Below, in pieces: positions 23,109 through 55,875 of a stretch of 64,000 nt of DNA (its first letter is position 1; each line of letters opens with the position of its first letter). The position numbers and the translations under genes are program-made. Source of the stretch: Glycocaulis sp. (GTDB lineage: Bacteria; Pseudomonadota; Alphaproteobacteria; Caulobacterales; Maricaulaceae); NCBI GenBank assembly GCA_022565665.1, contig JAIUMI010000011.1, positions 1 through 64,000 of the forward strand. Reading direction: 5' to 3'. The notes beneath the pieces are model-generated. The model did not search any database and was not told where the DNA came from. It saw nothing but the letters and a program-made list of their open reading frames with translations.

Positions 23109-23124
23109 AAAAGATATATCCTTT
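23109..23124. promoter_or_regulatory. regulon palindrome, site A
   Basis: AAAAGATATATCCTTT, a 16-bp near-perfect palindrome around GATATATC. It lies 33 bp upstream of the DUF3598 start and after the amidase stop, so it serves the DUF3598-FAH-maiA unit. It matches seven other intergenic sites in this window. Confidence 0.65.
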
Positions 23125-23146
23125 ATCGGCGTGGCAAGATGCCGGT

Positions 23147-24454
23147 TTACAGCTCTGCCTGCGCGAAATCGCCGCGCGCGGCTTCAAACGCTGCCGCTGC
23201 TACAATACCGGCGAAATCGCCGCCCGCAGGCGCCATGATCTGCAAACCCAGCGGCAGGCGTTCACGGCTCAGTCCCATCGGCACCGAAGTGGACGGGATA
23301 CCGGCAAAATCGGCAAAGGCAGTGAGATCAGCCTGGCTGGCAGGGATCGGTTCACCAAACCGGAAGGCCGGCTCCAGCGCCGTCGGCGCGGCAATGAAAT
23401 CGACCCTGGTGAAGGCGTCGGCCGCGTCCAGCCCGGACGCATCAAGCACGCCAAGCGCCTCGCGATAACGCGCCTCTCCCTGCTTTGCGCCCCATTGCAG
23501 CATTTTGGTGAAACTATCTGAAAAGCCTTGCGGATTCTCCGCCATGACAGCGGCGTGTTCGGCATAACCCTCCCACTCCGAGATGATGAGACCTTCCCGG
23601 CGCGACTGGCCGAAGGCGTAGCGCTTGAAGCGGATATCGACGATCTGCGCACCCTGCTCCCGCAAGAGCATCAGCGCCGCCTCAAACGCCCGCATCACAT
23701 CGGAGCGGACGTCCATCTCGGTCTCGAAGCGCCAGCGACCGACGCGTTTCCCCGCAAGCGGCCTGTCGACGGCACGCACCGGCAGCCCTGAAAGCACCGC
23801 AAAGGCAGGGGCAAGATCGGCGGCTCTGCGTGCTATCGGTCCGACATGATCAAGCGAATAGGAGAGCGGGATGACGCCCTCCACCGGTACCGCCCCGCGC
23901 GAGGGCTTGTGCCCGCACAAACCGCAATAGGCAGCCGGGATGCGCACCGAGCCCATCGTGTCGGTGCCCAGCGTCACCGGCGCAAAGCCCGCCGCCGCGG
24001 CTGCGCCCGATCCGCCGGAGGAACCGCCGGGCGTCAGCCCTTCGCCCCACGGATTGAAACAGCGCCCGAAATGGGCGTTGTCGGTCACCGCGCCGAGCGC
24101 GCCTTCCTCCATGTTCAGCGTGCCGAGGATCACCGCCCCGCCTGCCCGCAGGCGCGCCACCACCGCAGCATCCTCGCCCGCGATCCGGTCCCGGTAGGCG
24201 CCTATCCCGGCATGCCAGGGCAGGCCGCGAACCGCGATATTGGCCTTCACCAGCACCGGCACGCCATCAAGCGCGGAGAGGCTCGCTCCCGCCTTGCGGC
24301 GCGCCCCTGCCGCTTCCGCTTCTGCGCGGGCACCGGGCGCGAGGTCGAGCACGGCGTTGAGCCGCCCGTTCAGCGCCTCGATACGCGCCAGAGAGGCCTC
24401 CAGCGCTTCCACGGGCCGGGCGTGGGCCTCGGCAAGGGTCGGGGCCGGGATCAT
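23147..24454 (-). CDS. amidase-signature family hydrolase
   Basis: A 435-residue enzyme with the complete Ser-cisSer-Lys triad: lysine 70 (PVLVKANI), serine 145 in GGSSGGSGAAAA and serine 169 in TLGTDTMGSVRIPA. The 24-residue spacing between the serines is normal. Amidase-signature enzymes hydrolyse amides or half-amides such as maleamate-type compounds. The start overlaps the end of the PaaK-like ligase gene by 4 bp, so it belongs to the operon that begins with the two MmgE/PrpD genes. The substrate is unknown; a role in ring-opened imide or amide hydrolysis is an inference from context. Confidence 0.88.
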   Translation of the reverse strand: MIPAPTLAEAHARPVEALEASLARIEALNGRLNAVLDLAPGARAEAEAAGARRKAGASLSALDGVPVLVKANIAVRGLPWHAGIGAYRDRIAGEDAAVVARLRAGGAVILGTLNMEEGALGAVTDNAHFGRCFNPWGEGLTPGGSSGGSGAAAAAGFAPVTLGTDTMGSVRIPAAYCGLCGHKPSRGAVPVEGVIPLSYSLDHVGPIARRAADLAPAFAVLSGLPVRAVDRPLAGKRVGRWRFETEMDVRSDVMRAFEAALMLLREQGAQIVDIRFKRYAFGQSRREGLIISEWEGYAEHAAVMAENPQGFSDSFTKMLQWGAKQGEARYREALGVLDASGLDAADAFTRVDFIAAPTALEPAFRFGEPIPASQADLTAFADFAGIPSTSVPMGLSRERLPLGLQIMAPAGGDFAGIVAAAAFEAARGDFAQAEL

Positions 24455-25848
24455 GAAAAGCGGCTGTCGATCAGGCGAATGGGCTTCTGGCGCACTTCGG
24501 TCTGGGTGAGCTCTGCCAGCCCGCCGGGGGCGCTGAGCTCCACCTCCACCTCGATACCGATCTTGCGTTTCAGAAGGTCACCGATTGCGTCCTTCAGGCC
24601 TTGCGGCTGCTCGCGCACTTCCACCGCCACGGTGAAGATTTCACGGCCATCAGCCTCGCGGCGCGCCTTGCAGATGAACTCGCCATTGAAGGCGCTGATC
24701 TCCTCGATCAGCGGGCCGATGGCCTGCGGGAAGATGTTTATGCCGCGGATCTTGACCATGTTATCCGAACGCCCGAGAAACCCCTCTATCCGCTTGAAAG
24801 TGCAATTGATTGAGGATTTGCCTGTGATCACACGGGTCACGTCGTGCGTGTTGAAGCGGATGATCGGGTAGATGTCGTCCTTGTAGAGGCAGGTGCAGAT
24901 CATGTCGCCGCTCTGGCCATCCGCCACCGGCTTGCCGGTCTCGATATCGGCGACTTCGAGATACTGCGCATCCTCCATCACATAGAGGCCGTCGCGGTCC
25001 GGGCCTTCGCCGGCGATGACGCCAGTATCGCCGACGCCATACCAGTCAAAGCATTCCGCCCCGCCCCAGGCACGCGAGAGCGCCTCCTTGTCCTCGCGGC
25101 CCAGATGGCCGGAGATCATCCGGATATTCAGATCACGAACCGGATCGATACCTTGCTCTACAGCCACTTGGGACAGTTTCTTGATGTAGTCTGCAAAGCC
25201 GACAATCACCGTTGCGCCGAAATCGCGCATCAGCTCCACCTGCCGGGCTGAGCGGGTTTCCACGCCCGTGCCGGCGCTCATGAATATGGCGCTGGTCCAG
25301 TGGATCACGGCTTCGCGCACATAGTGCCCACCATTGATCATGCCGTGGCCATAGACGGAGTGGACCACATCATCGGGGCGCAGCCCCTGAAAGCGGTAGA
25401 GCCGGCCCAAGAGCAGGTTCTGTATCTCGCGCGATTTCGCTCCGAAGAGCAGAACCTGCGGCGTACCCGTGGTGCCGGATGTGGTGTGCATCACGACCGG
25501 AGGGCGCTCTCCGGCGCCATAGCTTTCAAAGCCGCCAAAATCCCCGAACGGGGGCTTCAGGGCGATGGAGTCCATGATGTCCTGCTTGTCAAAGCTCGGT
25601 AGGGAGGGGAGCGTTTCCAGCCCCTTGATATCGCCGGGCTCGATACCCGCCTGCCCCCAGAGGCGCTGATAGAAGGGGGTCGCCCAAGCACGGGTAACGC
25701 AGCGGGCAAAGAGCTTTTCCTGACGCGCGCGCAGTTCGTCCCGGCTGATCGAGGTGACAAAGCGGGTGAAGTCATCGCCCACCGGGAAATCGGCGCGCAC
25801 CGCGTTCCAGTCCACCGCGTTGAAATAGGTATTATGCCCGTCACTCAT
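24451..25848 (-). CDS. PaaK-like acyl-CoA ligase (AMP-forming)
   Basis: A 465-residue ANL-superfamily enzyme. The P-loop is HTTSGTTGTPQVLLFG at about residue 120. Next come DWYGVGDTGV and 'DDIYPIIRFNTHDVTRV' (adenylate binding), and the C-terminal hinge GRSDNMVKIRGINIFPQAI is close to phenylacetate-CoA ligase (PaaK). It activates a carboxylic acid with ATP and CoA. The window has no PaaABC epoxidase, so phenylacetate itself is not implied. It is 26 bp after the upstream MmgE/PrpD gene and overlaps the amidase gene. Probably the entry step that makes a CoA thioester of the pathway substrate. Confidence 0.87.
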   Translation of the reverse strand: MSDGHNTYFNAVDWNAVRADFPVGDDFTRFVTSISRDELRARQEKLFARCVTRAWATPFYQRLWGQAGIEPGDIKGLETLPSLPSFDKQDIMDSIALKPPFGDFGGFESYGAGERPPVVMHTTSGTTGTPQVLLFGAKSREIQNLLLGRLYRFQGLRPDDVVHSVYGHGMINGGHYVREAVIHWTSAIFMSAGTGVETRSARQVELMRDFGATVIVGFADYIKKLSQVAVEQGIDPVRDLNIRMISGHLGREDKEALSRAWGGAECFDWYGVGDTGVIAGEGPDRDGLYVMEDAQYLEVADIETGKPVADGQSGDMICTCLYKDDIYPIIRFNTHDVTRVITGKSSINCTFKRIEGFLGRSDNMVKIRGINIFPQAIGPLIEEISAFNGEFICKARREADGREIFTVAVEVREQPQGLKDAIGDLLKRKIGIEVEVELSAPGGLAELTQTEVRQKPIRLIDSRFS

Positions 25849-25874
25849 ATGTCGTCCCCGTATCGGTAGTTTGC

Positions 25875-27221
25875 TTATGGCCTCAGCAGCGCAGCAATCG
25901 CGCCGCCTGCGGCCTCGGTTTCCATGCCCGCCACCCGCGCAGCCAGCGTATCGGCCAGCGCCAGTGGCAGCCTTGCAAAGGCAAGGCAGGTTTCCTGCTT
26001 GGCGCGTTGATCTTCGGGGCGCATCGGGTCTTGCGGCGAGCCGTAGAGGGCGCGCGTCTCCACGGTGACCTGCCGCCCGTCTTTCAGCCGCGCCTCGGTA
26101 ATCTGCGGCGTGAAGGCGGCCGGATCGTCCGTGCCGTCTTCCACCACCTCGATGCGTGCGCCCAGTGTCAGCGTGTCCGCGTCACCCAGCGCGCTTTCGG
26201 TGAAATCAGAGAGCCCCACCTGCCCCGTCATCAGCGCGCGTGCGCCGACATACTGAAAGCACAGCCGGGCATGGTTGATGCCCATGCCGGCAAACGCCTT
26301 GCGGCCCACCAGCCGCTTGATCAGAGGCGGCGCGATGAGGCGGATCGACTCCACTTCGCTGGCGACCACGCCTTCAGCGCGCAAAGCCTGCATCAGGGCA
26401 ATGCCGCCTTGCGCGGCGCGGCCCGTCGGCCAGGGTTTGTGGGATATCTCCAGAACCCTCCATATTCGCCCCAGAGAGGCGAGAACGGGTTTTGGGTCTA
26501 CTGACTGCTCAAAGAGCGCAAAATAGCCGTATGGGCCTTCCAGGGCCTTTGACGGGCCTTCCAGACCCGCTTCTGCCAGATCACACGCCACGATGGCGGC
26601 GCGGGCCGCCTGCGCGATCTGGATGGGCAGAGCTGGCTTGCCCTCCACATGCGCCTGCATCGTGCCTGCCGCCTGTGCCAGCGCATAGCCAAGCGCGTTG
26701 CGGGCGGTCGCCTCGTCAAAGCCGCGCATCCGCGCAATGCCGAGCGTCGCACCGAACAGACCTGCCGTTGCAGGCCGGAAAAAGCGGATCGGGCTGGTGA
26801 CAGCGACACCGAGGCCCGCCGCCACATCCACCGCTACCACGATGGCCGCCAGAAGGTCTGCGCCCGGATGGCCCCGGTCTGCGGCGTCTGCCGTCAGCGC
26901 CGCGCCGATGGTTGCCATGGGATGGACGACCGCGCGCTCATGCACGCAGTCATATTCCTGGCAGTGGATCTGGAAGCCGTTCACATAGGCCGCGCTCGCG
27001 GCGGGCAATGTCTCGCCCGTGCCCCAGACGGCCACCTTGCCGCCTGTGCCCCAGCGCCGCACGACGGAGCGCACAGGCTCGGCCAGCGGGCTCATCGCAC
27101 CTGCGGCGCCCACGCACAGCGTATCGAGATAGAAGGTCCTGGCGGCGGCAATCGCCTCTGCCGGAATATCCTTCCGGCGCACGCCCAGCGCATGGGCAGT
27201 GAAGGCGGCCTCCGCGCTCAT
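25875..27221 (-). CDS. MmgE/PrpD family protein (copy 2)
   Basis: A 448-residue protein of the MmgE/PrpD superfamily, which includes 2-methylcitrate dehydratase, cis-aconitate decarboxylase and iminodisuccinate epimerase. Family features are FYLDTLCVGAAGAMSPLA, FQIHCQEYDCVHERAVVHPM (the catalytic helix with the conserved D-x-x-x-x-x-HP pattern) and ISHKPWPTGRAAQGGI. It acts on small tricarboxylate-like acids. Its start overlaps the stop of the other MmgE/PrpD gene by 4 bp; the two proteins are clearly diverged. They may form two enzymes or a heteromer. Reaction unknown. Confidence 0.85.
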   Translation of the reverse strand: MSAEAAFTAHALGVRRKDIPAEAIAAARTFYLDTLCVGAAGAMSPLAEPVRSVVRRWGTGGKVAVWGTGETLPAASAAYVNGFQIHCQEYDCVHERAVVHPMATIGAALTADAADRGHPGADLLAAIVVAVDVAAGLGVAVTSPIRFFRPATAGLFGATLGIARMRGFDEATARNALGYALAQAAGTMQAHVEGKPALPIQIAQAARAAIVACDLAEAGLEGPSKALEGPYGYFALFEQSVDPKPVLASLGRIWRVLEISHKPWPTGRAAQGGIALMQALRAEGVVASEVESIRLIAPPLIKRLVGRKAFAGMGINHARLCFQYVGARALMTGQVGLSDFTESALGDADTLTLGARIEVVEDGTDDPAAFTPQITEARLKDGRQVTVETRALYGSPQDPMRPEDQRAKQETCLAFARLPLALADTLAARVAGMETEAAGGAIAALLRP

Positions 27222-28591
27222 ACCACACCCCTTATGCCCAGAGCGGGCAGCATGGTGGTGAAGGATTTAAGCGGCCCGCCTTCGGCCATATCCAGCGCGG
27301 CATGGCACAATCGGTCCGCCATGAGCGGACTCATCCCGCCCGCCGCGCACAGGGCGAGCGCCTTCTCCTTCAGCCGGTCAACGCTGACCGGGTTTTCAGG
27401 ATCACCCAGGGCGTCCGGTGCCTCGCCTACATGCTCGCTGCCATCGCGCAGGCCAACCGAAACCCGCGCGCCATAGCGGGCGGGATAGGCGCTGGCGAAG
27501 TCGTCACTGGCCGCGACATCCACCTTGGCGGCGAGCGCGCGCACCTGAAGATCGGAATAGCTTTCCGGCTCGAAATCGGCCAGTGCCGGGCCGCCGCGCA
27601 GCAAAGCAATCGCGACCGAATGCTGGAGAGAAAACTTCGCTTCCAGAACGGTTTGCGGCTGGGGCTTGTCACAGAACTTCAAGGCGTCGGGATAGGTCTC
27701 GATGCGGATGCTGGCGATCTCGCCAGCGGCAACACGCCCGCCAAGCTCCAGCGCGGCATCAATCGCGGCGTGGGCGTGGCGGCAGGCGGGCCAGGGCTTG
27801 AAGCTGACCTCGTCAATGCGCCAGCCCGGCCCGTAATCGGCCAGCACATCGGTCGGCTCCGCGCCGGGGCAGGTGGCGGCGAAAAAGCCCTGCGGCCCTT
27901 CAAGGATAGCCAGCGGACCATCAAAGCCCTGCGCGGCCAGCTTCGCGCCCAGCAGCCCCGCATGGGCCGCCCGCGCAGTGTGCAATTGCTTGGCCATGGA
28001 GGCCGGTTCATGGCGCGTCTGCCAGAAGCCGCTGGCTTGGGTACCCGCCAGCGCCAGCGCGTGGGCGGTGCGTTCAGGGGAAAGCTCCAGCACGCTCGCT
28101 GCCGCCATCGCCGCGCCGAACGGTCCGCACGTGCCGGTATTGTGCCAGTAGGCGTAGTGACCAGCGCCGACCGCGCGGCCAACGCGGATCACCGCCTCAT
28201 AGCCGCGCACTATCGCATCAAGGAAATGCAGTGTGCCCCGGCCTGCATCCTCGCAGGCGGCCAGCGCCGCCGGGATGACCACGGGGCCGGGATGGAGGAT
28301 GGCGCGCTTGTCGACATCATCCATCTCCAGAACATTGCCGAGCGCGCCATTGGCCATCACGGCGGTAAGGGCGCCGGAAGGCAGTGCGCCAATGGCCGTG
28401 CAATAGCCGCGCGCCTCGTCCTTCACCGCCGCGCGCAAGGCCTTTGCCTGCTCGCAAATCGAGCCCGCCACCGCGCAGCCCGCCCAGTCGAGCACATGCA
28501 GGGCCGCACGCGACCGCGCATCGTCGCTGACCGGCGACGCGCAGAGCGCAGCCAGCTCACTTGTCAGCGCATTTGGCATTTGTCCGGACAT
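27218..28591 (-). CDS. MmgE/PrpD family protein (copy 1)
   Basis: A 457-residue member of the MmgE/PrpD family. It shows ALHVLDWAGCAVAGSICEQA, NGALGNVLEMDDVDKRAILH and FKPWPACRHAHAAIDAAL, the family's dimer, active-site and substrate regions. The start at 28591 keeps the conserved N-terminus (MSGQMPNALTSELAALCASP); 28579 is an alternative, and longer reading would run into the divergent gene. First gene of the five-gene run MmgE/PrpD-MmgE/PrpD-PaaK-amidase, with operator B 34 bp upstream. The tandem pair resembles PA0881-like genes of itaconate-type clusters in family only. Confidence 0.85.
   Translation of the reverse strand: MSGQMPNALTSELAALCASPVSDDARSRAALHVLDWAGCAVAGSICEQAKALRAAVKDEARGYCTAIGALPSGALTAVMANGALGNVLEMDDVDKRAILHPGPVVIPAALAACEDAGRGTLHFLDAIVRGYEAVIRVGRAVGAGHYAYWHNTGTCGPFGAAMAAASVLELSPERTAHALALAGTQASGFWQTRHEPASMAKQLHTARAAHAGLLGAKLAAQGFDGPLAILEGPQGFFAATCPGAEPTDVLADYGPGWRIDEVSFKPWPACRHAHAAIDAALELGGRVAAGEIASIRIETYPDALKFCDKPQPQTVLEAKFSLQHSVAIALLRGGPALADFEPESYSDLQVRALAAKVDVAASDDFASAYPARYGARVSVGLRDGSEHVGEAPDALGDPENPVSVDRLKEKALALCAAGGMSPLMADRLCHAALDMAEGGPLKSFTTMLPALGIRGVV
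28581..28590. promoter_or_regulatory. TGTCCGGACA palindrome next to operator B
   Basis: A perfect 10-bp palindrome overlapping the first codons of MmgE/PrpD copy 1. The same 10-mer recurs at 36005-36014 beside operator C. It may be a second operator, or a codon coincidence here. Confidence 0.3.
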
Positions 28592-28625
28592 ATCTGAGCT
28601 TGTAGCATGCGCGCCGCGCGACGCA

Positions 28626-28641
28626 AAAGGATATGTCATTT
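28626..28641. promoter_or_regulatory. regulon palindrome, site B (divergent promoter)
   Basis: AAAGGATATGTCATTT, one base off the GATATATC core. It lies between the divergent MmgE/PrpD and CoA-transferase genes and overlaps the presumed ribosome site (AAAGGA) and TTG start of the latter. Confidence 0.6.
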
Positions 28642-29899
28642 GCCCCTGCCCCATGTCATCACCGCCCGCGAGGCTCTTGAACGCATCCGCCTGAGCCACC
28701 CTGATGGCGCGCGCATCTATGTGCCCGGTGTGGCAGCTGAACCGCTTGTGCTGGCAGAAGCGCTTCGTGCTTCACCCGATATCGCGGCGGGCCATACCTT
28801 CCTTGGAATCTGGATACCGGGCGTGAACGCGACGGACTGGGCAGGACTGAATCCGAAGGCGCGCTCCGAGCAGATTTTCCTCGGCAGTGAATGGCGGGAG
28901 AGCTTTGAAGCGGGCCGGGCGCGCTTTCTGCCCTTCACCTACACCCGCGCCTGGCGCTGGCTGGAGGAAGCGCGCGTCGATGCCGCCTTCGTCACGGTAT
29001 CCATGCCGGATGCGAAAGGACGCGCGAGCCTTGGCGCTGCGAGTGATTTCACCCCGGCATTGTGGGCGCGCGCACCGCTGAGATTCGCCATTGTGAACCC
29101 CAACATGCCGTTTATCGCGTCGGCACCCTTCATCGATCTTGCCGCATGTGACGGGGTGATCGAGGCTGATACACCCCTGCCCGGCTATGACGCGGGCGCG
29201 CTCGCCCCGGAATTTGCCGCAATCGCCCGCCATATCGCAGGTGTGGTGAGGGACGGCGATGCGGTGCAGTTCGGCCTCGGCAAGGTGCAACTGGCCGTCC
29301 TGCCCGCCCTCAAGGCGCATAAAGGCCTCACCATCCATTCCGGCATGGTGTCCGATCCGCTGCTGGACATTCTGGACGGGGGTCAGGTCGCGGCCATCCG
29401 CACCGGTGCGATCCTGGGCAGCCCGGCCTTGAATGCCCGCCTTGCCCATGATCCACGCCTTGCCATGCGCACCGTGCGGCAAACGCATTTTCCAGACTGT
29501 TTCCCACCGCTGAACGGCTTCTGCGCCATCAACTCGCTGATCGAACTGGATCTGTTCGGTCAGGGCAATGGCGAGTTTGTCGGCAACCGGCAGGTTTCGG
29601 GCGGCGGCGGACTGCTCGACTTTGCGCGGGGCGCGCAGATTGCACCCGGTGGCCGGGCCGTGTTCGCGCTGGTTTCCACGGCGAGGAACGGTGCCGTGAG
29701 CCGCATCGTGCCGCGCCTCAAATCAGGGGCCGTCACCCTCACCCGCAGCGATATCGCGATTGTCGTGACCGAGCACGGCGTGGCGTATCTGGACGGCCTT
29801 GATATCGACGCGCGCGCTGAAGCCCTGATCAGCGTGGCGGCACCGCAGCATCGCGACGCGCTGGCAGACGCGTGGGCGCGGATGCGCCGGGAGATGTAA
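28640..29899 (+). CDS. acetyl-CoA hydrolase/transferase family (4-hydroxybutyrate CoA-transferase-like)
   Basis: A 419-residue CoA-transferase. The conserved catalytic region INSLIELDLFGQGNGEFVGN, followed by SGGGGLLDFARGA, identifies the acetyl-CoA hydrolase/4-hydroxybutyrate CoA-transferase family; the glutamate in LIELDL is the expected thioester carrier. The N-terminal ARIYVPGVAAEPLVLAEAL fits. A TTG start at 28640 is proposed because AAAGGA lies 8 nt before it; an ATG at 28607 is possible but adds an unlikely arginine-rich tail. It would move CoA between acetyl-CoA and a carboxylic acid of the pathway. It is divergent from MmgE/PrpD and alone in its plus-strand unit. Confidence 0.85.
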   Translation: MPLPHVITAREALERIRLSHPDGARIYVPGVAAEPLVLAEALRASPDIAAGHTFLGIWIPGVNATDWAGLNPKARSEQIFLGSEWRESFEAGRARFLPFTYTRAWRWLEEARVDAAFVTVSMPDAKGRASLGAASDFTPALWARAPLRFAIVNPNMPFIASAPFIDLAACDGVIEADTPLPGYDAGALAPEFAAIARHIAGVVRDGDAVQFGLGKVQLAVLPALKAHKGLTIHSGMVSDPLLDILDGGQVAAIRTGAILGSPALNARLAHDPRLAMRTVRQTHFPDCFPPLNGFCAINSLIELDLFGQGNGEFVGNRQVSGGGGLLDFARGAQIAPGGRAVFALVSTARNGAVSRIVPRLKSGAVTLTRSDIAIVVTEHGVAYLDGLDIDARAEALISVAAPQHRDALADAWARMRREM

Positions 29900-31069
29900 T
29901 CAGATCACCTTGCGGGCAATGAGATCGGCGATGCCCGCCTCGCTGAAACCGGCCGCCCTTGCGAGCTCTTCCGAATGCTCGCCAAAACCCGGCACGGACG
30001 GGTCTGGCGTGCCCGGCTCATCGGCAAAGCGGATCGGCAGGCCGATATGGCGGTTTCCGTCAGCGTCTGTGAAGACCAGCCCGCGCGCCGCCGTGTGAGG
30101 ATCGTCAAACGCGTCTTTCAGCGTACGCACCGGTGCCCAGCAGCAATCCACGTTTTTGAGGAACGCCGCCCACTCTTCCAGCGTACGGCTGGCGAAAGTA
30201 TCGCGAAAGAAGGCGCGCACCGGCTCCTGGTGGGGGCCCGGCTCCAGTAGCGCGACCGCCACCAGATCCGGCCGTCCAAGGGCTGTGAGCAGGTTCTCGG
30301 TGAACTTCGCTTCCGACCCGCCGAGCACAAGGAAGCGGCCATCCTTGGTCTCATAGACATGATACATCGCCGCGCCGCCAAAGCTGCGCATGTCCTTGAC
30401 GGGCGGGTGAGCATCCTCAGCAAACACAGGTCCGGTGACGTTCGGCGTCCAGCTCAGCGCCGCGTCATACATGGCCATGTCGATATAATCGCCCTTACCC
30501 GTCTCATGGCGGCGATAGAGCGCCATCAGAATGGCCGATAGCGCCATCAGCGAGGCTGCCATGTCGGCCACCGGCATGTTGGGGCTGGCGGGCTTGCCGT
30601 CCTCCAGCCCGCGATTGAGATCAACCAGTCCGGCGAGAGCCTGCACGGTCAGGTCATGGGCGGGCTTCATCGCATAGGCGCCCTCCTGCCCGAAGGCGGA
30701 GATGGAGCAATAGACGAGGCGCGGATTGAGGGCCTTTAGCGTCTCGTAATCCACGCCCAGCCGCTTCACGACGCCGGGGCGGAACGCCTCCACGAACACA
30801 TCGGCCTCTTTCGCGAGCGCCTGCACCAGCTTCTGCCCGGCAGGGTCTTTCAAATTCACTTTCAGCGAGCGCTTGCCGCGCGCGATATTGCGAAACCAGA
30901 CCGAAACACCGCCAGCCGTCTTCCAGCCGATCTCGCGCGTCGGCTCGCCAATGGCATTGGCCGGCTCGATCATGACCACGTCCGCGCCATGGTCCGCCAT
31001 CATCATGGTCATGTGCGGACCAGGCAGAAAGGCAGACAGATCAAGGACTTTGAGGCCGGAAAGCTTCAT
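29900..31069 (-). CDS. CaiB/BaiF CoA-transferase family protein (copy 2)
   Basis: A 389-residue type III CoA-transferase. GLKVLDLSAFLPGPHMTMMM at the start, EAFRPGVVKRLGVDYE and the catalytic aspartate in KPAHDLTVQALAGLVDL are the family signatures. It transfers CoA between small acids, or acts as an alpha-methylacyl-CoA racemase. It is the last gene of the minus-strand run starting with the CitE-like lyase and follows the DUF433/DUF5615 pair by 10 bp. Which acid it activates is unknown; an itaconate- or mesaconate-like C5 diacid would suit its neighbours. Confidence 0.87.
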   Translation of the reverse strand: MKLSGLKVLDLSAFLPGPHMTMMMADHGADVVMIEPANAIGEPTREIGWKTAGGVSVWFRNIARGKRSLKVNLKDPAGQKLVQALAKEADVFVEAFRPGVVKRLGVDYETLKALNPRLVYCSISAFGQEGAYAMKPAHDLTVQALAGLVDLNRGLEDGKPASPNMPVADMAASLMALSAILMALYRRHETGKGDYIDMAMYDAALSWTPNVTGPVFAEDAHPPVKDMRSFGGAAMYHVYETKDGRFLVLGGSEAKFTENLLTALGRPDLVAVALLEPGPHQEPVRAFFRDTFASRTLEEWAAFLKNVDCCWAPVRTLKDAFDDPHTAARGLVFTDADGNRHIGLPIRFADEPGTPDPSVPGFGEHSEELARAAGFSEAGIADLIARKVI

Positions 31070-35982: not shown

Positions 35983-35998
35983 TAAGGATATATCCTTG
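35983..35998. promoter_or_regulatory. regulon palindrome, site C
   Basis: TAAGGATATATCCTTG, with a perfect AAGGATATATCCTT core, directly before the CitE-like gene. It would block transcription start or the ribosome site if bound by a repressor. Beside it, at 36005-36014, is the TGTCCGGACA palindrome. Confidence 0.65.
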
Positions 35999-42729: not shown

Positions 42730-42790
42730 TACATAGTGCACCGTGAAAGTGCTGTCTGACAATCACCTCAGGAACCGGGGGACAGGGGCC

Positions 42791-48501: not shown

Positions 48502-49586
48502 GCCGCACCGCCAGAGCGCTCGGCAGCAAAGGCCGCCTTGCCCGCAAGGATGGCCTCATAGACCTCGCGTGAACGCCCGCCGACATCATCAATCAGCTGG
48601 TCGATGACATTCTCCGTCGCACGCCGCCAGGCCGCCAGCTGGGCCGCATCTAGGTCGTGGACATGAATTTCCTCACCGCGCGAGGTGCGCAGTTCGCGCA
48701 CTACACTGCCATCGGGCCCGCGCTGCACGCCGGAACGCATAGCGCCTTCAAGAATCCCGGTCATCTGCCGCACGCCCGCGCGCGCATCGGCGGACGAGCC
48801 CCAGGCGGTGTCGATGGTTTCACGCTGGGAGGCGGTCGCGCGCCCATACCAGTCCCGGTTCAGCACGATGGCGCCGGTATCAAAGGAGTGGCGCGTCAGG
48901 GTGAAGTCGGTCGACAGCTCCAGCGTGGAAAAGAAGTGGAAGGGCAGGCTGGAAAGCCCGCCTTCGACGAGGCCTGTCTGCAGCGCGGGGATCACGTCGG
49001 AAATCCCCAGCGCTATGGCGTCCATCCCGGCAGCCTCGCAGAAAAAGCGCGCGGCAGCATTCGGCGAGGTGCGGATTTTCAGGCCCGCAGCATCGTCCGG
49101 CGTCAGGAGCGGGCGGTTGGCGAAGATGTGCGTCCAGCCCACCTCCACCCATTGCAGGATGAGCAGGTTCTGCGCCAGCGCCAGCTCATTGATGATGTCA
49201 TAGAGATGGTTGTCATAGACATAGTCCACCTCCTCGTAACTATCGAAAAGATAGGGCGATATGGCGATGGAGAGCTCGGGGATGCTCGACGCCAGCCCTT
49301 GCAGGCTCATGCCTCCGATATGAGCCCGGCCGCGCCGGAGATCGTGGAGCATGCGCTCCTCATTGCCGAGCTCGGCCTTGGTGAAATAGTCGATATTGAG
49401 CGTCGGATTCTCGGCCATGCGGGCCTCGAAGGCGAGCCATTGCGCATCCCACGGCGTACGGGGCGGGGCCTGCGCCACGGCGCGGCCATAGAGCGTTCCA
49501 GGCGGATCATTGCGCCGCCCGCACCCGGCAAGAGTGCCCGCGCCCGCCAGCCCGGCAAGGGCCAGGAATTCCCGGCGTTTCAACAT
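48498..49586 (-). CDS. TRAP transporter substrate-binding lipoprotein (DctP-like)
   Basis: A 362-residue periplasmic binding protein. The N-terminus has a twin-arginine signal and lipobox (MLKRREFLALAGLAGAGTLA, then GCG). AHIGGMSLQGLASSIPELSI, SPYLFDSYEEVDYVYDN and RTSPNAAARFFCEAAGMDAI give the DctP fold; the arginine before TSPN is the usual carboxylate ligand. The ATG at 49586 matches the signal peptide start; a longer frame would run over operator F. It captures a carboxylate for DctQM. Tat export suggests folding before export or a cofactor. Confidence 0.88.
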   Translation of the reverse strand: MLKRREFLALAGLAGAGTLAGCGRRNDPPGTLYGRAVAQAPPRTPWDAQWLAFEARMAENPTLNIDYFTKAELGNEERMLHDLRRGRAHIGGMSLQGLASSIPELSIAISPYLFDSYEEVDYVYDNHLYDIINELALAQNLLILQWVEVGWTHIFANRPLLTPDDAAGLKIRTSPNAAARFFCEAAGMDAIALGISDVIPALQTGLVEGGLSSLPFHFFSTLELSTDFTLTRHSFDTGAIVLNRDWYGRATASQRETIDTAWGSSADARAGVRQMTGILEGAMRSGVQRGPDGSVVRELRTSRGEEIHVHDLDAAQLAAWRRATENVIDQLIDDVGGRSREVYEAILAGKAAFAAERSGGAA

Positions 49587-49641
49587 TGGCTCTGGCCTCT
49601 CCCCAACGCTTGACCGCAGCGATTGAACGCCGTCATTCTGC

Positions 49642-49657
49642 AAAAGATATAACATTT
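49642..49657. promoter_or_regulatory. regulon palindrome, site F (divergent promoter)
   Basis: AAAAGATATAACATTT, between the TRAP operon (55 bp) and the amine oxidase gene (62 bp). The geometry is nearly the same as at site E. Confidence 0.6.
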
Positions 49658-49719
49658 CATCCGGGCGGCGATGGCAAGGCCATCCGCGCAGATGTTTGCA
49701 CAGTTTGGTGGAGGCCCCC

Positions 49720-51147
49720 ATGAGATTATCACGCCGCACAATGCTGGCCGGAAGCGCCGCTCTGACTGGCAGTTTCGCCATTGGCGGCTGTGGCCCTCGC
49801 GGAGATCGTGCGGCGAGGGACGCCGATGTCATCGTGCTGGGCGCAGGCCTGTCGGGGCTTCATGCAGCACGCATCCTTTCTGCTGCCGGCATGGACGTGC
49901 TGGTGCTGGAGGCATCAAGCCGGATTGGCGGGCGCATGGTGACGCTGGATCATCTGCCCGGAGCCCCCGAAGCCGGCGGCGAGCAGGTCGGGCGCGGCTA
50001 TGCGCGCGCTCACGCAGAGGCCGCCGCGCTGGGCCTGGAGTTCGAGGATTTCGCGCCCTCGCGCTTTGGCGAACAGCTGGTGGTGGACGGGCAAAGAATT
50101 GCTGCCAGCGAATGGCCGGCATCGCAGCTAAACCAGCTGCCTGAAGCCATGCGGGGTTTAAGCCCGCATCAGCTCTTCTTCGGGCTGGTCGCACGCCATA
50201 ACCCGCTGCCCGATGTCTACGCCTGGCGCGAGGAGGCCTGGCAGAGCCATGACATCGCTGCAGAGGACTTCGTGCGGTCGCTGGGTGCCAATGACGCGGC
50301 GGTCAGTCTGATGGATGCGACGCTCAATGCCGGGCGGCTTTCCACCTACTCGATGATGAATGTGTGGCGCTCGCTGACGCTGTACAATTCCGAGCGCGAG
50401 CTGGGCCCGTCACAGCGCGTCCGCGGCGGCTCGCAGCGCCTGCCTGAAGCCATGGCGGCGAGCCTTCCAAGGCCTGTACGCACCGATGCGCGGGTGGTGG
50501 CAATCGAAACCGACGATACCGGGGCAGCGGTGCGTCTGGAGAGCGGTGAGACGCTGCGGGCAGACTTCCTCGTCAGCGCCCTGCCCTTCCCGGTGCTTCG
50601 TGCGCTGGATGTCTCGGCGCCCGTCTCGGCGGCACAGGCCGAAGCCATTGACGGCCTGCCCTACACGCCGATCGTGCAGCTTCACCTGGAGGCCGAGACA
50701 CCCTTCTGGGAAGAGGATGGCCTTGCGCCCGAAATGTGGACCAACTCTCCGCTGAACCGGATTTTCGCACGCCGTGATGCGGACGGGCCGACGGGCATGT
50801 TCACCTGCTGGATCGATGGCATGGACGCCCTCGCGGCTGACGGTCGAAGCGAGGCCGAACTGCAGGCGCTGGTGTCAGAGATATTCGCCGCCGCCCGCCC
50901 GGCCAGCGAAGGGCGCTTGCGCTTGCGTGAGGTGATCCGCTGGACACCGTCCAATGCGCACGCAGGCGGGGCCTACATGCACTGGGCGCCGGGGCAGATC
51001 AGCCACTGGGCCGAACCGATGATCCGGCCTGCCGGGCGGCTCTTCATCGCAGGCGAGCACGCCAGCCATTTGCACACCGGCATGGAAGGCGCGATGGAGG
51101 CCGGCGAACGCGCTGGTGTCGACATTCTGGATATGGCAGGGGCTTGA
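49720..51147 (+). CDS. Tat-exported flavin monoamine oxidase-like lipoprotein
   Basis: A 475-residue flavoprotein. It starts MRLSRRTMLAGSAALTGSFA with a twin-arginine motif and GGCG lipobox. VIVLGAGLSGLHAARILSAA and SSRIGGRMVTLDH are the FAD-binding amine oxidase motifs; RLFIAGEHASHLHTGMEGAM closes the FAD site. It would oxidise an amine or desaturate a substrate in the periplasm with oxygen or a quinone as acceptor. It is divergent from the TRAP operon, so uptake and this oxidation may be coordinated. The substrate is unknown. Confidence 0.85.
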   Translation: MRLSRRTMLAGSAALTGSFAIGGCGPRGDRAARDADVIVLGAGLSGLHAARILSAAGMDVLVLEASSRIGGRMVTLDHLPGAPEAGGEQVGRGYARAHAEAAALGLEFEDFAPSRFGEQLVVDGQRIAASEWPASQLNQLPEAMRGLSPHQLFFGLVARHNPLPDVYAWREEAWQSHDIAAEDFVRSLGANDAAVSLMDATLNAGRLSTYSMMNVWRSLTLYNSERELGPSQRVRGGSQRLPEAMAASLPRPVRTDARVVAIETDDTGAAVRLESGETLRADFLVSALPFPVLRALDVSAPVSAAQAEAIDGLPYTPIVQLHLEAETPFWEEDGLAPEMWTNSPLNRIFARRDADGPTGMFTCWIDGMDALAADGRSEAELQALVSEIFAAARPASEGRLRLREVIRWTPSNAHAGGAYMHWAPGQISHWAEPMIRPAGRLFIAGEHASHLHTGMEGAMEAGERAGVDILDMAGA

Positions 51148-51150
51148 GGC

Positions 51151-52200
51151 CTACCGCCCCAAGCTCTCCGGCGTGTGGGTGCAGCTTGCCTGTAGCCAGC
51201 GCAGATTGATGCCCAGTCGCTCTGCGCCCGCCTCTCCCCAAGCATAGGACAGCGCCCGGTCATCACCCGCCTCATGGACATAGAGGGTCAGCGAGCCCCG
51301 GCGGTCCCGTGCAGGCCATTCCACATCGCGCAGGCGTAGCTCGATCTGGCGTGGCGGGGTCTCGTCGGTGGTGACAATCGCGCTGCCACCCTGATCATGC
51401 AGCCAGACATCGCGCAGGAACTGCCAGTCGGACGAACCCGCCCCGCTATCGCCGTGCGAGGCCCCGCGCAATACCGCCATCCAGCACTCGAAGGGGCGCA
51501 CCTTGAGCAGGCGATGCGGCAGGCCAAGCCGGTTGCCATAGACATACTCGCCCTCAGCCGTTTCGGCCCGGTCGCGGATCCAGATCGCATCCGGCGTCAG
51601 GACCAGATCATCCTCGATGACAAGCGTGCGCCCCGACTGGCGGCTTTCCACCACACAAACCCCGCGCACGGTCTCGCCGACAAACTGGTTTTCACGGCGA
51701 CGCCAATACACTTCGCAGCCGGGATAGCTGAGCGTGGCCGCTGGCGTCAGCCCTGCCAGCAGCGATGGATCACGCCACGCACCGCGCAACGCCGCCACGT
51801 CACGCGGCGCATAAATGTCCAGCCGGATGGCGTTGGCCTCGTGATCGGCGGTGAAGGTGTAGATACGCTGGCGATAGATGTTTTCGGGGTCATTGCCCGA
51901 ATACTGCTCGACATAGAATACGTGCTCGCCAAAGGCGGGTAGCTCCACACGGGCGAAGATGGAATGGATACGGCCATTGCGGCCCTCTTCAGGAATGCCC
52001 GCGGCCTCGGCGAAGAAGACCTCGCGGTCATTGTCGAACCGGCCTTCAAACCATTCCAGCATCAAGGCGAGGTCGGCCTCCAGCACGGCCTGCGCTGAAC
52101 GGTTCTCCGTTACCGGGTGGGTGTGGGGTAGTTGCGCCGGGGCAGGGCTGCTGCCTGCTGCCAACGCTCCCACTATCAGCCATGTCCTAAACCCGTTCAT
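51151..52200 (-). CDS. secreted CpcT/CpeT-like protein (copy 2)
   Basis: A 349-residue protein with a Sec signal peptide (MNGFRTWLIVGALAAGSSPAPA). ALMLEWFEGRFDNDREVFFA, IHSIFARVELPAFGEHVFYV and YRQRIYTFTADHEANAIRLD match the CpcT/CpeT family, as do the cysteines in YPGCEVYW and VRGVCVV. The C-terminal 140 residues (RPFECWMAVLRGASHGDSGA onward) are an extension. It is likely a calycin-type ligand-binding protein in the periplasm. It lies 99 bp after the TonB receptor gene on the same strand, with a terminator between, so it may be partly read through. Confidence 0.65.
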   Translation of the reverse strand: MNGFRTWLIVGALAAGSSPAPAQLPHTHPVTENRSAQAVLEADLALMLEWFEGRFDNDREVFFAEAAGIPEEGRNGRIHSIFARVELPAFGEHVFYVEQYSGNDPENIYRQRIYTFTADHEANAIRLDIYAPRDVAALRGAWRDPSLLAGLTPAATLSYPGCEVYWRRRENQFVGETVRGVCVVESRQSGRTLVIEDDLVLTPDAIWIRDRAETAEGEYVYGNRLGLPHRLLKVRPFECWMAVLRGASHGDSGAGSSDWQFLRDVWLHDQGGSAIVTTDETPPRQIELRLRDVEWPARDRRGSLTLYVHEAGDDRALSYAWGEAGAERLGINLRWLQASCTHTPESLGR

Positions 52201-52299: not shown

Positions 52300-54768
52300 C
52301 TAGAAGCGGTAACGCGCTTCGATGCCGTAGCTTGCCCCGCGGCGCAGCGTGCCGAAGAAGGCACGCGGAGCGCTTTGGGAAGCACCCGCAGGCGCAATGT
52401 TCGGCGAGAAGCCGGTGCTGATATACGGCGTCTGGAGCCAGCGCGTGGCCATCACGATGGAGTCCTCGTCAAGGATGTTCCGGCCATAGGCAAGAAGGGT
52501 CCAGTTGCCGCTCTCAATACCGAGTTGAGCGCCCAGGATCGAGGCATCCCCCGTCTCGGCAAGATTGTGAACCTGCACGTATTTCGACGATTCATAGGTG
52601 TAGTCGCCGCGCAGGAACCACTCCAGCATGCCTGCCGAGCCCAACGGAGCGCGCAGTTCGGCGTTCAAAGAGAGCTGGTGTTCGGAGGTGAGCGGAATGC
52701 GATTGCCCGCGATGGAGCAATTGCCGGTCTGACCGAAGAAGGATGTACCCGTGCCCGGCGCACTGGATCCCGGCGCCAGAAGGCCGCCACCGGAGGTGAG
52801 TTGCCACTGGTCCTCGTCGCAGCCTTCGGTGAACTCCGGCCGCGTCCAGGCATAGGTCGCGCCAATCGTCAGCATGTCATTGACGCGCTGGCGGTATTCC
52901 AGTTCCACGCCCCAGATTTCAGCAGAGCCCTGGTTGGTGGCCACCGAGTTGACCGCACCGGTCGGCGCCGCCACCGCCGTGGTTAGCTGCACATCAGAGG
53001 CATCGATATAATATACCGAACCGGCGAAGTAGCCGCTGCCGCCAAACAGGAAGCGCTTCAGACCAATCTCGAAATTGTCCGACGTTTCCTGATCATAGGT
53101 CGGGCGGCCAACGGTCTCACCGATCTGGCCATTTTGACCACCCGGCTTCACACCGCGCGAATAGACCGCAAACAGCGTCGTATCAGCGTCGACATTCCAG
53201 TTCACCGTGAGACGGGGGGTGAAGTTGTTGAACGTATCCGCCCGGCTGAACTGCGTAGTGGCGCTCAGCCCGTCAACCGTCGTTTTTTCCTCTTCCGCGT
53301 AACGGCCTTCCAGCGTCACGGTAAGCGCGTCGGTAAGGTCATACTCCAGCAGTGCAAACACTGCCTGGTTGGTCGTCGTCAACCGGCTGGACGGGTTGCC
53401 CTGCGGATTGGAGAAGGTGATGCTGCGGCCGTTATTGGTCTGGTCGTAATAATACAGGCCCGCCATCCAGCGGAAGCGGTCGGTGACAGGCGAGGCCAGA
53501 CGGACCTCGATCGAGTAGTCCTCGACCAGATTGCGCGTGGTGTTGGCAAAGAAGGCGCCAGTATCAGCCATGCCGACCGGCTGCAGAACGAAGTTCACCG
53601 CCGAATGATCGGAGTCCGAGCCGAAGCGGCGTTCCTCATCACGATACCCGCCTGATACGGTCAGGACATAGCCCGAACCGCCCAGATCCCAGTTCATGAT
53701 GGCCGAGAGCAGAAGTGTGTCGTTCGATACGCCATCGAATGCCGTGCCATCAGCCGTCGAGTAGAGCTGGAACGGCAGGAAGGGGTGCAGCGCGTTAGCC
53801 GGAACACCCGGTATCGGTACCGGCTGGCCTGGTTGGGCCGGGCCGGTGTTAAGCGCCACCGGTGCGGGGCGGATCACGCCGCAGAAATACTGATTGTTGT
53901 TGGTGCTGCCCGAACGCGGCCAGGACGCCAGCGAGCGATGGCCAGGCGAACAGTTGTTCGATGCGGCCGGCTGCAGGAAGAGCGGCAGGGTGCCGTCACG
54001 GGACTCCGAGTACTGGGCGCGCAAACGGATATCGATATTGCTGGACGGATTGAAATCCAGCAGGCCGGAGATTGACGTGGTGGATTGTGAGCCCACCGTC
54101 TGGCCGGTCACCTGATTGGTCCACTCACCATCATAATTATAATCGCGTACCGACAGGCGGAAACCCGCATTGGGGCCGAGCGGGCCGGAGACGCCGCCGG
54201 CAATCTCATGCTCGCCATAAGAGCCATACCGGCCGCGCAGGTTGCCCTCAAGCGTGTCGGTGGCGCCGCGCGTGATAAAATTGATCGCGCCGGCATAGGT
54301 GTTGCGGCCATAGAGCGCGCTCTGCGGGCCGCGGATCACTTCCACGCGGGCCAGATCGTTCGGATCGAGATTCTGGATCGATCCGGGATAGTAGACGCCA
54401 TCCACAAAGTAGGCCGTGCCGGACTCCACCCCGAACTGCACGCCAGCCAGCACGTTGGCCTGGCCACGGATCACCGGGCGCTCCGAGGTGCGCCCAAAGG
54501 CGGCCGAAAAGGACAGGCCCGGCGTGAACCGCGCCACATCGTCCACCGTCTGGAGACCAAGGCTGAGAATGTCTTCCTCGCCAAATGCGGTCACGGACAC
54601 CGGCGCATCAAGGATGGTTTCCTCGCGGCGGCGCGCGGTCACTGTGATGATGTCACGCGCGCTGCGCTGATCGGCTTCGGTATCAGCCTGACGCGCAACA
54701 CCCGGCGCGCTGACAAGCGCGGTCATGGCCAGCGCGGCGGCCGAGCTCAGTAGAATGGTTTTCTTCAC
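52300..54768 (-). CDS. TonB-dependent outer-membrane receptor
   Basis: An 822-residue receptor. A signal peptide (MKKTILLSSAAALAMTALVS) precedes a TonB-box-like DIITVTARRREETILD, the plug (FTPGLSFSAAFGRTSERPVI, DLARVEVIRGPQSALYGRNT, YAGAINFITRGATDTLEGNL) and a 22-strand barrel ending in GIEARYRF. It imports scarce or bulky molecules using TonB-ExbBD energy. Four cysteines in two loops suggest disulfides. The gene has operator G 54 bp upstream and so is coregulated with the catabolic genes, which points to uptake of the pathway substrate rather than iron. Confidence 0.92.
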   Translation of the reverse strand: MKKTILLSSAAALAMTALVSAPGVARQADTEADQRSARDIITVTARRREETILDAPVSVTAFGEEDILSLGLQTVDDVARFTPGLSFSAAFGRTSERPVIRGQANVLAGVQFGVESGTAYFVDGVYYPGSIQNLDPNDLARVEVIRGPQSALYGRNTYAGAINFITRGATDTLEGNLRGRYGSYGEHEIAGGVSGPLGPNAGFRLSVRDYNYDGEWTNQVTGQTVGSQSTTSISGLLDFNPSSNIDIRLRAQYSESRDGTLPLFLQPAASNNCSPGHRSLASWPRSGSTNNNQYFCGVIRPAPVALNTGPAQPGQPVPIPGVPANALHPFLPFQLYSTADGTAFDGVSNDTLLLSAIMNWDLGGSGYVLTVSGGYRDEERRFGSDSDHSAVNFVLQPVGMADTGAFFANTTRNLVEDYSIEVRLASPVTDRFRWMAGLYYYDQTNNGRSITFSNPQGNPSSRLTTTNQAVFALLEYDLTDALTVTLEGRYAEEEKTTVDGLSATTQFSRADTFNNFTPRLTVNWNVDADTTLFAVYSRGVKPGGQNGQIGETVGRPTYDQETSDNFEIGLKRFLFGGSGYFAGSVYYIDASDVQLTTAVAAPTGAVNSVATNQGSAEIWGVELEYRQRVNDMLTIGATYAWTRPEFTEGCDEDQWQLTSGGGLLAPGSSAPGTGTSFFGQTGNCSIAGNRIPLTSEHQLSLNAELRAPLGSAGMLEWFLRGDYTYESSKYVQVHNLAETGDASILGAQLGIESGNWTLLAYGRNILDEDSIVMATRWLQTPYISTGFSPNIAPAGASQSAPRAFFGTLRRGASYGIEARYRF

Positions 54769-54822: not shown

Positions 54823-54838
54823 TATTGATATATCATTT
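54823..54838. promoter_or_regulatory. regulon palindrome, site G
   Basis: TATTGATATATCATTT, with an intact GATATATC core, 54 bp upstream of the TonB receptor start. The left arm deviates from the consensus. Confidence 0.6.
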
Positions 54839-54926: not shown

Positions 54927-54934
54927 TTTTTCCT

Positions 54935-55822
54935 TTAGTTGCTGCGGTCGGGCGCTTCGATCTCGCCACGCGCCACGCCAAGGAAATAGGACCAGCTCGT
55001 CACGTTCGGACGGGTGTCATCCAGCGGCGGCGCCTGATTGTATTCGGGATAATGGCGTTCGATTTCCGCACGGAAGAATTCAGGAAGGGCGTCATAGCCG
55101 CCTTCCAGCTTGCGCCCTGCCGTGGAGAAATAGATCACGCCTTCGCGGCCCTGCATGCGCATCCAGGGAAGCCAGTCGGACATGCGCACCCAGCCGACCC
55201 AGGCTTCTGCTGTGGTCGTTTCGGGATCGAGCACGTCAGCATCATTGCCGAAGAAATTGAACATCTCGGTCGCATGATAGGTGCCGCCAATCTCGCTCTG
55301 GAACTCGCTGGCCAGCGGGTTTGAGTAGAAGAGCGGGACCGTGTTGGTGAACCACCAGCCGCCATCAGTGGACTGGCCGTTCCAGCGCAGCGGGCCGCGC
55401 GGCCCGTTCACATAGGCGGTGAAGTTCACCGGATCGTTGGCAACGTGGAGGACGTCCACCGTCTCGCCCGTCCACGGATTGTCCCAGGTGGAGAGGATTT
55501 CGTTGGTCTCCGGATCGAGATAGAGAAGGATTTCGCGCGATACGAGGCGATACCCGTCGCCATACTCAGGATGACTGATGGACGCGCAGGCACGGATATT
55601 CATGCCCTCGACCCGGAACAGGCGCCGGTCCGCCTCGCCTTGACGGCGTGAAAAGGCATAGCCGTTCCAGTAATAGACCACCGGCTCGCCATCGACCGTG
55701 GAGCACTGGATCTTGCGATTGATCTGCAACACGTCCTCGGGATTGTCGAAGCTCAGCGGCTCTGCGGCCCATGCCGTACTGCTCATTGCAAGGACGCAGC
55801 CCGCAATCATGATCTGTTTCAT
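54935..55822 (-). CDS. DUF1838 family secreted protein
   Basis: A 295-residue protein with a Sec signal peptide (MKQIMIAGCVLAMSSTAWAA). The DUF1838 pattern is clear: DGEPVVYYWNGYAFSRRQGE, LYLDPETNEILSTWDNPWTG and ETVDVLHVANDPVNF. Next comes SDWLPWMRMQGREGVIYFST. No function is assigned to the family; the Trp-rich strands suggest binding of a flat hydrophobic ligand. Operator H is 37 bp upstream. A much longer frame upstream is an artefact of the plus-strand gene. Confidence 0.75.
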   Translation of the reverse strand: MKQIMIAGCVLAMSSTAWAAEPLSFDNPEDVLQINRKIQCSTVDGEPVVYYWNGYAFSRRQGEADRRLFRVEGMNIRACASISHPEYGDGYRLVSREILLYLDPETNEILSTWDNPWTGETVDVLHVANDPVNFTAYVNGPRGPLRWNGQSTDGGWWFTNTVPLFYSNPLASEFQSEIGGTYHATEMFNFFGNDADVLDPETTTAEAWVGWVRMSDWLPWMRMQGREGVIYFSTAGRKLEGGYDALPEFFRAEIERHYPEYNQAPPLDDTRPNVTSWSYFLGVARGEIEAPDRSN

Positions 55823-55859
55823 ATCACTCTCCCCGTTGGGTCCGCTTATCGGACATTTC

Positions 55860-55875
55860 AAATGGTATATCATTT
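55860..55875. promoter_or_regulatory. regulon palindrome, site H
   Basis: AAATGGTATATCATTT, one base off the core, 37 bp upstream of the DUF1838 start. Next to it is GGACATTTC, the half of the second motif found at 36005-36014. Confidence 0.6.

Follow-up and report, generated by a model that had tools for sequence, protein, structure and literature searches.

Regulators of the HutC subfamily, among them NagR/YvoA, DasR, HutC and PhnF, join a GntR helix-turn-helix (HTH) domain to a UTRA domain and act on a palindromic operator, a single copy of which can serve divergent promoters. Their consensus operator is given in the accessible text of PMC4494728 as GTMTAKAC, its G being contacted by an arginine. 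Here we describe a putative system of the same make-up in Glycocaulis sp. (GenBank assembly GCA_022565665.1), starting from positions 1 to 64,000 of contig JAIUMI010000011.1; this stretch of 64,000 nucleotides is called the window, and its contig C11. The window holds eight copies of a 16-bp palindrome with the core GATATATC. Very probably, the palindrome is the operator of a HutC-subfamily (UTRA) GntR protein encoded on another contig, at C6:68860-69705, which would most likely act as a repressor. The original prediction, made from the letters of the window, had seen in the palindrome the mark of a 33-kb regulon. It was right but understated: the regulon is dispersed, and we name a strong candidate regulator.

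Palindromes in the window and in the genome

All eight palindromes lie where they were first reported, and give 16 strand matches at up to three mismatches, against 0.09 expected from 100 shuffles (largest shuffle count, 2). As predicted, four copies have the core intact (23109, 35983, 39564 and 54823), and the other four differ from it by a single base (28626, 42714, 49642 and 55860). Four of the sites (28626, 39564, 42714 and 49642) are placed between divergent units.

Across the whole genome (2.74 Mb, 99.9% complete), 12 places match AAWGATATATCMTT with at most one mismatch, and the reversed pattern, used as control, matches none. Eight of these places are in the window, which gives it a far higher density of sites than the rest of the genome has; another three are on contig C6 (45643, 48469 and 62584), and the last is C19:298. 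The reading as a regulon is supported but its 33-kb limit is not, given the three places on C6 and probably one more on C12.

The gene families of the window are repeated at the C6 places. The first lies between a second FAD amine oxidase gene and the gene of a 230-aa membrane protein (Mem230), the second between an SSF symporter gene and a second DUF1838 gene, downstream of which follow CpeT-type, isochorismatase-family and PuuE/deacetylase-family genes, and the third between an acyl-CoA dehydrogenase gene and an aconitase-family gene. From positions, we arrive at a rough count of about 40 genes for what is most likely a dispersed catabolic regulon.

Allowing two mismatches adds 8 places, which account for 11 strand hits; the control gives 4 strand hits, so that this level is partly noise. 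The one such place we kept is C12:20810, for two reasons: a TonB receptor gene follows it, and a 226-aa protein encoded there has relatives beside GntR in other genomes; another, C8:109039, falls inside an open reading frame (ORF) and was set aside. At C19:298, a one-mismatch match near a contig end, no gene could be assigned and an Rfam scan of L020-L022 found nothing. Like it, C14:648 and C23:368 resemble the site, lie close to the start of a contig and have no clear genes around them.

A GntR gene that accompanies the sites

The original prediction saw no regulator gene in the window and took the regulator to be elsewhere or unrecognised. Indeed, 0 of 30 Pfam-scanned window ORFs encode a DNA-binding regulator, in a scan that left out a 4100-aa ORF (8698-21000) and the remaining ORFs; one of the 30 encodes a histidine kinase (56638-59175). 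Genome-wide there are four GntR-domain matches, one of them below the family cut-off, and ten TetR-domain matches. The candidate on C6 consists of an N-terminal GntR HTH domain (PF00392, 6e-18) and a C-terminal UTRA domain (PF07702, 6e-31), and its nearest named solved relatives, YvoA/NagR and DasR, are both repressors.

We scanned 137 genomes of the family for strand hits at up to one mismatch, with the reversed pattern as control. Three genera (g1, g14 and g15; 23 genomes) are bimodal: 12 genomes have 7 to 19 strand hits and no control hit, and of the remaining 11 only G010 has any hits, namely 2. A search with the protein over all 137 genomes found orthologues of the C6 GntR, at 67-92% identity, in G012, G081, G084, G086, G088, G089, G090, G092, G093, G094 and G097. 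Within the three genera, orthologues of at least 67% are thus present in exactly 12 of the 12 genomes with the site set, the window genome included, and in 0 of the 11 others; G009 and G010 have a paralogue at 52-53%, together with 0 and 2 strand hits, respectively. The Fisher p for this co-occurrence is 7e-7 over 23 genomes, a guide only, since the genera were picked after the counts had been seen and kinship is uncorrected.

Site DNA was taken from six of the 11 other genomes with the set (G012, G081, G084, G092, G093 and G097), and many orthologous promoters keep the site in these relatives: the methyltransferase, aconitase and Mem230 promoters in 6/6, DUF1838a in 5/6, TonB1 in 4/6 and DctP in 3/6. 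The two ends of contig C1 of G081 (L078 versus L076/L077) share a run of genes, one copy of which is split into many short frames; the duplication is probably an assembly overlap.

A regulator gene with the site in its own promoter, which the original prediction had suggested looking for, was found in more distant relatives. In genus g17 (14 genomes), the site stands 29-43 bp before the GntR start in 4/4 genomes that have a relative of 40-43% identity; for L119, the distance was measured to the ATG matching the other g17 GntR starts. The recognition segment VSRITVKRA is invariant over 15 proteins. In named genomes, the loci of the best 80 of 226 GntR relatives, 1.37 Mb in all, contain 69 sites, and the same sequences reversed contain 0. 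In 25 of the 80 loci the GntR match has a site no more than about 300 bp away, and in 68 there is at least one regulon-type gene. Their hosts include Hyphomonas, Henriciella, Parvularcula, Brevundimonas, Niveispirillum, Kordiimonas, Stappia, Hwanghaeella, Aquidulcibacter and Candidatus Phycosocius. In a Hwanghaeella locus (L202:13468-17312), site and GntR occur with hydantoinase A/B, a TRAP binding protein and a methyltransferase, and further ring-opening hydrolases may join the same regulator. Another palindrome, of the form GATATAA..TTATATC, recurs in Niveispirillum-type loci (L146:7260, L149:428, L150:175 and L154:7081).

A consensus drawn from 124 distinct contexts that had been selected for resembling it, each counted in both orientations (248 oriented contexts), reads AAATGATA|TATCATTT, with almost no conservation beyond 16 bp: no position outside exceeds 0.23 bits. 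The symmetry of this table is built in by the counting, whereas the palindromes themselves were read straight from the sequence. The outer G is kept in 98% of contexts, and the base next to it is A in 85%, G in 12% and T in 2%.

Several points weigh against assigning the palindrome to the C6 GntR. We chose this protein because it is the DNA-binding protein within the conserved set, other transcription factor families not having been profiled singly, and any gene linked to the pathway would show the same co-occurrence. The GntR gene of the window genome has no site next to it, and among the best 80 relatives 55 loci have none inside 300 bp; most Brevundimonas and all Niveispirillum-type relatives are without such a nearby site at the threshold used. 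The six relatives were sampled at their sites, so genes that had lost the site are invisible and the lower promoter counts are not conservation rates. Five of the 11 genomes without the site set show one control hit each. In other genera, where the one-mismatch count is noisy, G002, G024, G106 and G111 reach similar values and have no GntR match at 1e-8; most of these hits are one-sided and scattered. Exact matches in six genomes of other genera number 0 in G002, G106 and G111 and 1 in G024, G060 and G117, the one in G060 lying about 600 bp from its 33% GntR relative. Finally, GATATATC keeps the G-to-C distance of the HutC consensus as quoted in the accessible text of PMC4494728, but the base next to its outer G is A (or G), whereas the consensus has T there, its GT and AC standing four bases apart; if the C6 GntR binds it, GATATATC would be a variant HutC site.

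From sequence comparison we infer three things together, namely binding of the site by the C6 GntR, repression and the identity of the inducer. A GntR dimer would sit on or next to the promoter, covering the -10 region in part of the promoters. An intermediate of the pathway would then bind the UTRA domain and release GntR from the DNA, opening the eight window promoters, the three C6 places and probably one on C12. In distant relatives the smallest unit beside GntR is a LeuC-like hydro-lyase with a PrpB/dimethylmalate-lyase-like enzyme, which suggests a substituted malate or maleate as effector.

Operators and genes of the window

The sites had been placed upstream of genes throughout, and so they are in general, the amidase gene being the exception. 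Operator A (AAAAGATATATCCTTT, 23109-23124) lies past the 3' end of the amidase ORF and serves only the DUF3598-like gene, whose start at 23075 is 33 bp away; in G097 and G092, too, a site accompanies this gene. First-start ORFs run over the sites at 28626, 42714, 49642 and 55860, so that the true starts must be inside those ORFs. The DUF3598_N protein has 148 aa (22629-23075, minus strand; Pfam PF12204, 6e-6). Behind operator A, also on the minus strand, come the amidase-signature enzyme, a half-amidase candidate (23147-24454; PF01425, 3e-91), a CoA ligase, PaaK-type by its C-terminal domain (24451-25848; PF14535, 4e-8, with PF00501 below cut-off), and the MmgE/PrpD family proteins 1 (25875-27221; Pfam) and 2 (PrpD2, 27218-28699).

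Operator B (AAAGGATATGTCATTT, 28626-28641) separates PrpD2 from an acetyl-CoA hydrolase/CoA-transferase family gene (28607-29899, plus strand; PF13336), and the first-start ORFs of both run over it. The site has the same position in G012 and was not seen there in the remaining relatives fetched. Operator C (TAAGGATATATCCTTG, 35983-35998) precedes a unit on the minus strand that encodes an HpcH/HpaI citrate-lyase-type C-C lyase (35156-35977; PF03328), a MaoC-type, mesaconyl-CoA hydratase-like hydratase (34631-35152; PF19315/PF01575), an acyl-CoA dehydrogenase (33409-34605) and a CaiB; CaiB/BaiF CoA-transferases 1 (29900-31069) and 2 (32087-33262) lie on the same strand and, like the dehydrogenase, were assigned by Pfam. 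In G012, the counterpart of operator C is a site after Glyox1 (L072:8940), where HpcH was not picked as an ORF.

Operator D (AAATGATATATCATTA, 39564-39579) stands between the SDR unit and a gene for a methyltransferase-domain protein (39674-40900, plus strand; Pfam), at whose promoter all six relatives keep it. On the minus strand of this region are encoded the SDR oxidoreductase (38330-39166), with 89-95% identity in the five relatives where it was picked, a polysaccharide-deacetylase/PuuE-type hydrolase 1, a cyclic-imide hydrolase candidate (37320-38234; PuuE allantoinase 3cl6, E 3e-61), CpeT/CpcT-family protein 1 (36666-37298; PF06206, 4e-16), with a signal peptide by eye, and the glyoxalase-family protein Glyox1 (36070-36642), with a lipoprotein-like leader by eye. 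Operator E (AAATGATATAACCTTT, 42714-42729), between orf41915 and Glyox2, has a counterpart in G012 and G081; the glyoxalase-family gene Glyox2 (42743-43672) is followed by genes for a zinc-binding-dehydrogenase-type (MDR) reductase (43681-44688) and an alpha/beta hydrolase (44685-45764), all on the plus strand and named by Pfam.

Operator F (AAAAGATATAACATTT, 49642-49657) divides the TRAP binding protein gene DctP (48498-49832, minus strand), whose first-start ORF runs over it, from that of FAD amine-oxidase-family enzyme 1 (49696-51147, plus strand), which has a twin-arginine-like leader by eye. The DctP site recurs in G012, G081 and G092, and the transporter subunits DctQ (47953-48501) and DctM (46694-47953) are encoded on the minus strand (both Pfam). 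Operator G (TATTGATATATCATTT, 54823-54838) precedes the TonB-dependent receptor gene (52300-54768, minus strand; Pfam), as it does in G012, G084, G092 and G093; in G097, no site stands directly before TonB1. CpeT/CpcT-family protein 2 (CpeT2) is encoded at 51151-52200 on the minus strand (Pfam, 6e-30), and its model matches CpcT. Operator H (AAATGGTATATCATTT, 55860-55875) is 37 bp from the most likely start, at 55822, of the DUF1838 protein (295 aa; 54938-55822, minus strand; PF08894), which has a signal peptide by eye; the site is also found in G012, G084, G092, G093 and G097. Elsewhere in the window, the 4100-aa ORF at 8698-21000 is on the minus strand and has a negative GC skew over much of its length.

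Gene functions and a possible substrate

By Pfam, the regulon contains uptake systems (TonB receptors, TRAP and SSF), FAD oxidases with CpeT, DUF1838 and glyoxalase-type proteins, several of which have leader peptides by eye, hydrolases (PuuE-type, amidase and isochorismatase-type amidase), and CoA and lyase enzymes (CoA ligase, CaiB, acyl-CoA dehydrogenase, MaoC, HpcH, LeuC-like and PrpB-like). Families that could supply an imide-opening hydrolase and a maleamate-type amidase are both represented, their specificity being beyond sequence assignment. The PrpB-like enzyme on C6 has matches to 2,3-dimethylmalate lyase (3fa3), to methylisocitrate lyases and to the petal death protein. Taken together, the genes probably serve to import and degrade cyclic imides.

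As to their source, we tentatively suggest, from gene content, that the regulon serves the breakdown of tetrapyrrole fragments, among which maleimides derived from chlorophyll or bilin are the best single candidate. The accessible text of PMC7318184 describes both maleimides and hematinic acid as products of chlorophyll degradation. TonB import of the pigment would be followed by the action of exported oxidases working with the CpcT-fold and DUF1838 proteins. The resulting maleimides would be taken up by TRAP and SSF transporters and undergo imide and maleamate hydrolysis, hydration and C-C cleavage. The pigment would be turned into a maleimide and this into an alkylmaleate before C-C cleavage, each of these substrate steps being conjectural.

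The suggestion leans on the bilin-binding fold of regulon proteins, the CpeT family with its CpcT fold, whose binding of such ligands is putative. The CpeT2 model matches the phycobiliprotein lyase CpcT (Foldseek, 4o4o, E 2.6e-9, TMt 0.76), and also its phycocyanobilin complex 4o4s; the single-sequence search gives this link an E of only 0.028. CpeT matches occur in 10/12 genomes with the site set versus 7/125 others, and in 1/14 control genomes, a cyanobacterium; G081 and G090 have the site set and no CpeT match. The window genome has four CpeT-type genes. For the DUF1838 protein, the model is fair (pLDDT 86), and nothing in the PDB matches it at E 0.001 or better; its weak hits, which include a haemophore and the lipocalin-like Ycf58, were not used as evidence.

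That the regulon is as described and its substrate another cyclic amide, ureide or imide (allantoin-, hydantoin- or nicotinate-like), the CpeT-fold proteins binding something else, has a little under an even chance. The imidase candidates match the PuuE allantoinase 3cl6 at E 3e-61 and 1e-26 and, less closely, at 1e-15 and 1e-6, 3qbu, a structure related to proven imidases according to the accessible text of PMC9304392. For the isochorismatase-type enzyme, which matches the maleamate amidase NicF (3ot4/3uao), N-carbamoylsarcosine amidase scores better. The hydantoinase A/B genes beside the Hwanghaeella GntR and the two CpeT-less genomes with the site set also favour a substrate other than a tetrapyrrole, as do Stappia and a Rhodospirillaceae locus, where, of the reference genes, only the LeuC- and PrpB-like ones stand beside GntR, with ABC-transporter genes. 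Against it count the four CpeT-type genes, one with a clear CpcT fold, and their distribution among genomes; moreover, TonB uptake and exported oxidases suit a large pigment, and ureides need neither CoA routes nor C-C lyases.

Self-turnover of the host's own bacteriochlorophyll was considered and rejected: the window genome, G012, G081 and G089, all with the set, have no reaction-centre match. This search matched 10/137 genomes, and G091 and G095 have a reaction centre without the set.

A second palindrome and the choice of regulator

A second palindrome, TGTCCGGACA, probably marks a second HutC-type GntR, to judge from their arrangement in several genomes. It lies beside operator B (28581-28590) and operator C (36005-36014), at both of which it is a likely operator of this second regulator, and adjoins the C12 site, at C12:20826. 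In the window alone its number is not above chance (3 matches at up to one mismatch versus 1.78 expected), so the case rests on other genomes and on the second-GntR loci. The 12-mer ATGTCCGGACAW occurs in 7/7 site-set genomes tried and in 1/7 without the set, and TGTCCGGACA is found within about 270 bp upstream of the second GntR in 6/13 loci (L076, L146, L152, L153, L170 and L193); G008 and G011 have the second GntR without the 12-mer. The orthologue in the window genome (70%; C2:195822-196580) is divergent from a further CpeT-type gene (L212:10969-11757), and by position a CpeT-type gene also lies next to the second GntR in G008, G009, G010 and G012. Given TGTCCGGACA near operators B and C and the C12 site, some lower-pathway promoters are probably under both regulators. 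It is conceivable, if short of probable, that pigment mineralisation is controlled by two interlocking HutC-type repressors with different palindromes, in alphaproteobacteria some of which live with cyanobacteria or algae. According to their abstracts, Aquidulcibacter comes from cyanobacterial aggregates and Candidatus Phycosocius is an algal ectosymbiont.

With the second GntR in hand, one may ask if it, the C12 TetR or some other regulator binds GATATATC while the C6 GntR merely co-travels. We regard this as improbable. The second GntR does sit inside the clusters of G081 and G084 and has its orthologue in the window genome, and the TetR gene (L025:210-794) is 4 kb from the C12 site. However, the second GntR has a palindrome of its own in nearly half of its loci and is present in two genomes without a GATATATC hit, G008 and G011, whereas GATATATC adjoins the first GntR in 25/80 loci and precedes GntR in the 4 g17 genomes.

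The notion, raised in the original prediction, that the element is the -10 region of special sigma factor promoters is very unlikely: the core is AT-rich and TTGNC is in excess about 14-20 bp outside the site (8-12.5% at four overlapping offsets, 1-6% elsewhere), but there is no oriented, fixed -35 partner, with at most 0.23 bits outside the 16 bp and TTGNC in at most 12.5% of oriented contexts, one site serves divergent genes, and the sites are linked to GntR genes. The weak -35-like excess of TTGNC suggests instead that some operators overlap ordinary sigma-70 -10 boxes, fitting repression.

Comparison with known systems

Genes with little annotation can now be treated as a single testable regulon, which has a candidate regulator, its operator and gene set defined, and relatives in many alphaproteobacteria. 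If the substrate is a tetrapyrrole, these would be candidate genes for chlorophyll and bilin breakdown; chlorophyll is made and degraded at 10^12 kg a year, according to the accessible text of PMC7318184. Among the open-access papers listed, we found no bacterial gene set for chlorophyll or bilin breakdown, which is weak evidence of absence.

In HutC-type regulons the closest parallels are those named at the outset; here, the regulator gene is not beside most of its putative targets, and 11 operators are spread over C11 and C6, with probably one on C12. The regulated pathway is not among the HutC ones named in the accessible text of PMC4494728, where Caulobacter, Hyphomonas, Oceanicaulis and Rhodospirillales do not appear either. 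In the fungal HxnM/HxnN nicotinate module and with the Pseudomonas putida imidase, as given in the accessible text of PMC9304392, a deacetylase-fold cyclic imidase is followed by an FAAH-like half-amidase. The window has both enzyme families (37320-38234 and 23147-24454), but its hydrolase is nearer to PuuE than to 3qbu.

With the CpcT/CpeT phycobiliprotein lyases the locus shares the Pfam CpeT match (6e-30) and the fold match to CpcT. Unlike these lyases, CpeT2 is predicted to be exported (signal peptide by eye), and the host genome is without a reaction-centre match; at 21% identity to CpcT, lyase activity is not implied. In the DmdAB-DML system of nicotinate fermentation, a 2,3-dimethylmalate/methylisocitrate lyase acts with a LeuCD-type hydro-lyase. 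The C6 HacA/LeuC-type large subunit and 3fa3-like lyase resemble this pair, and the small-subunit domain is seen in G084; unlike DmdAB-DML, the hydro-lyase/lyase pair described here comes together with imide-type hydrolases under what would be one operator.

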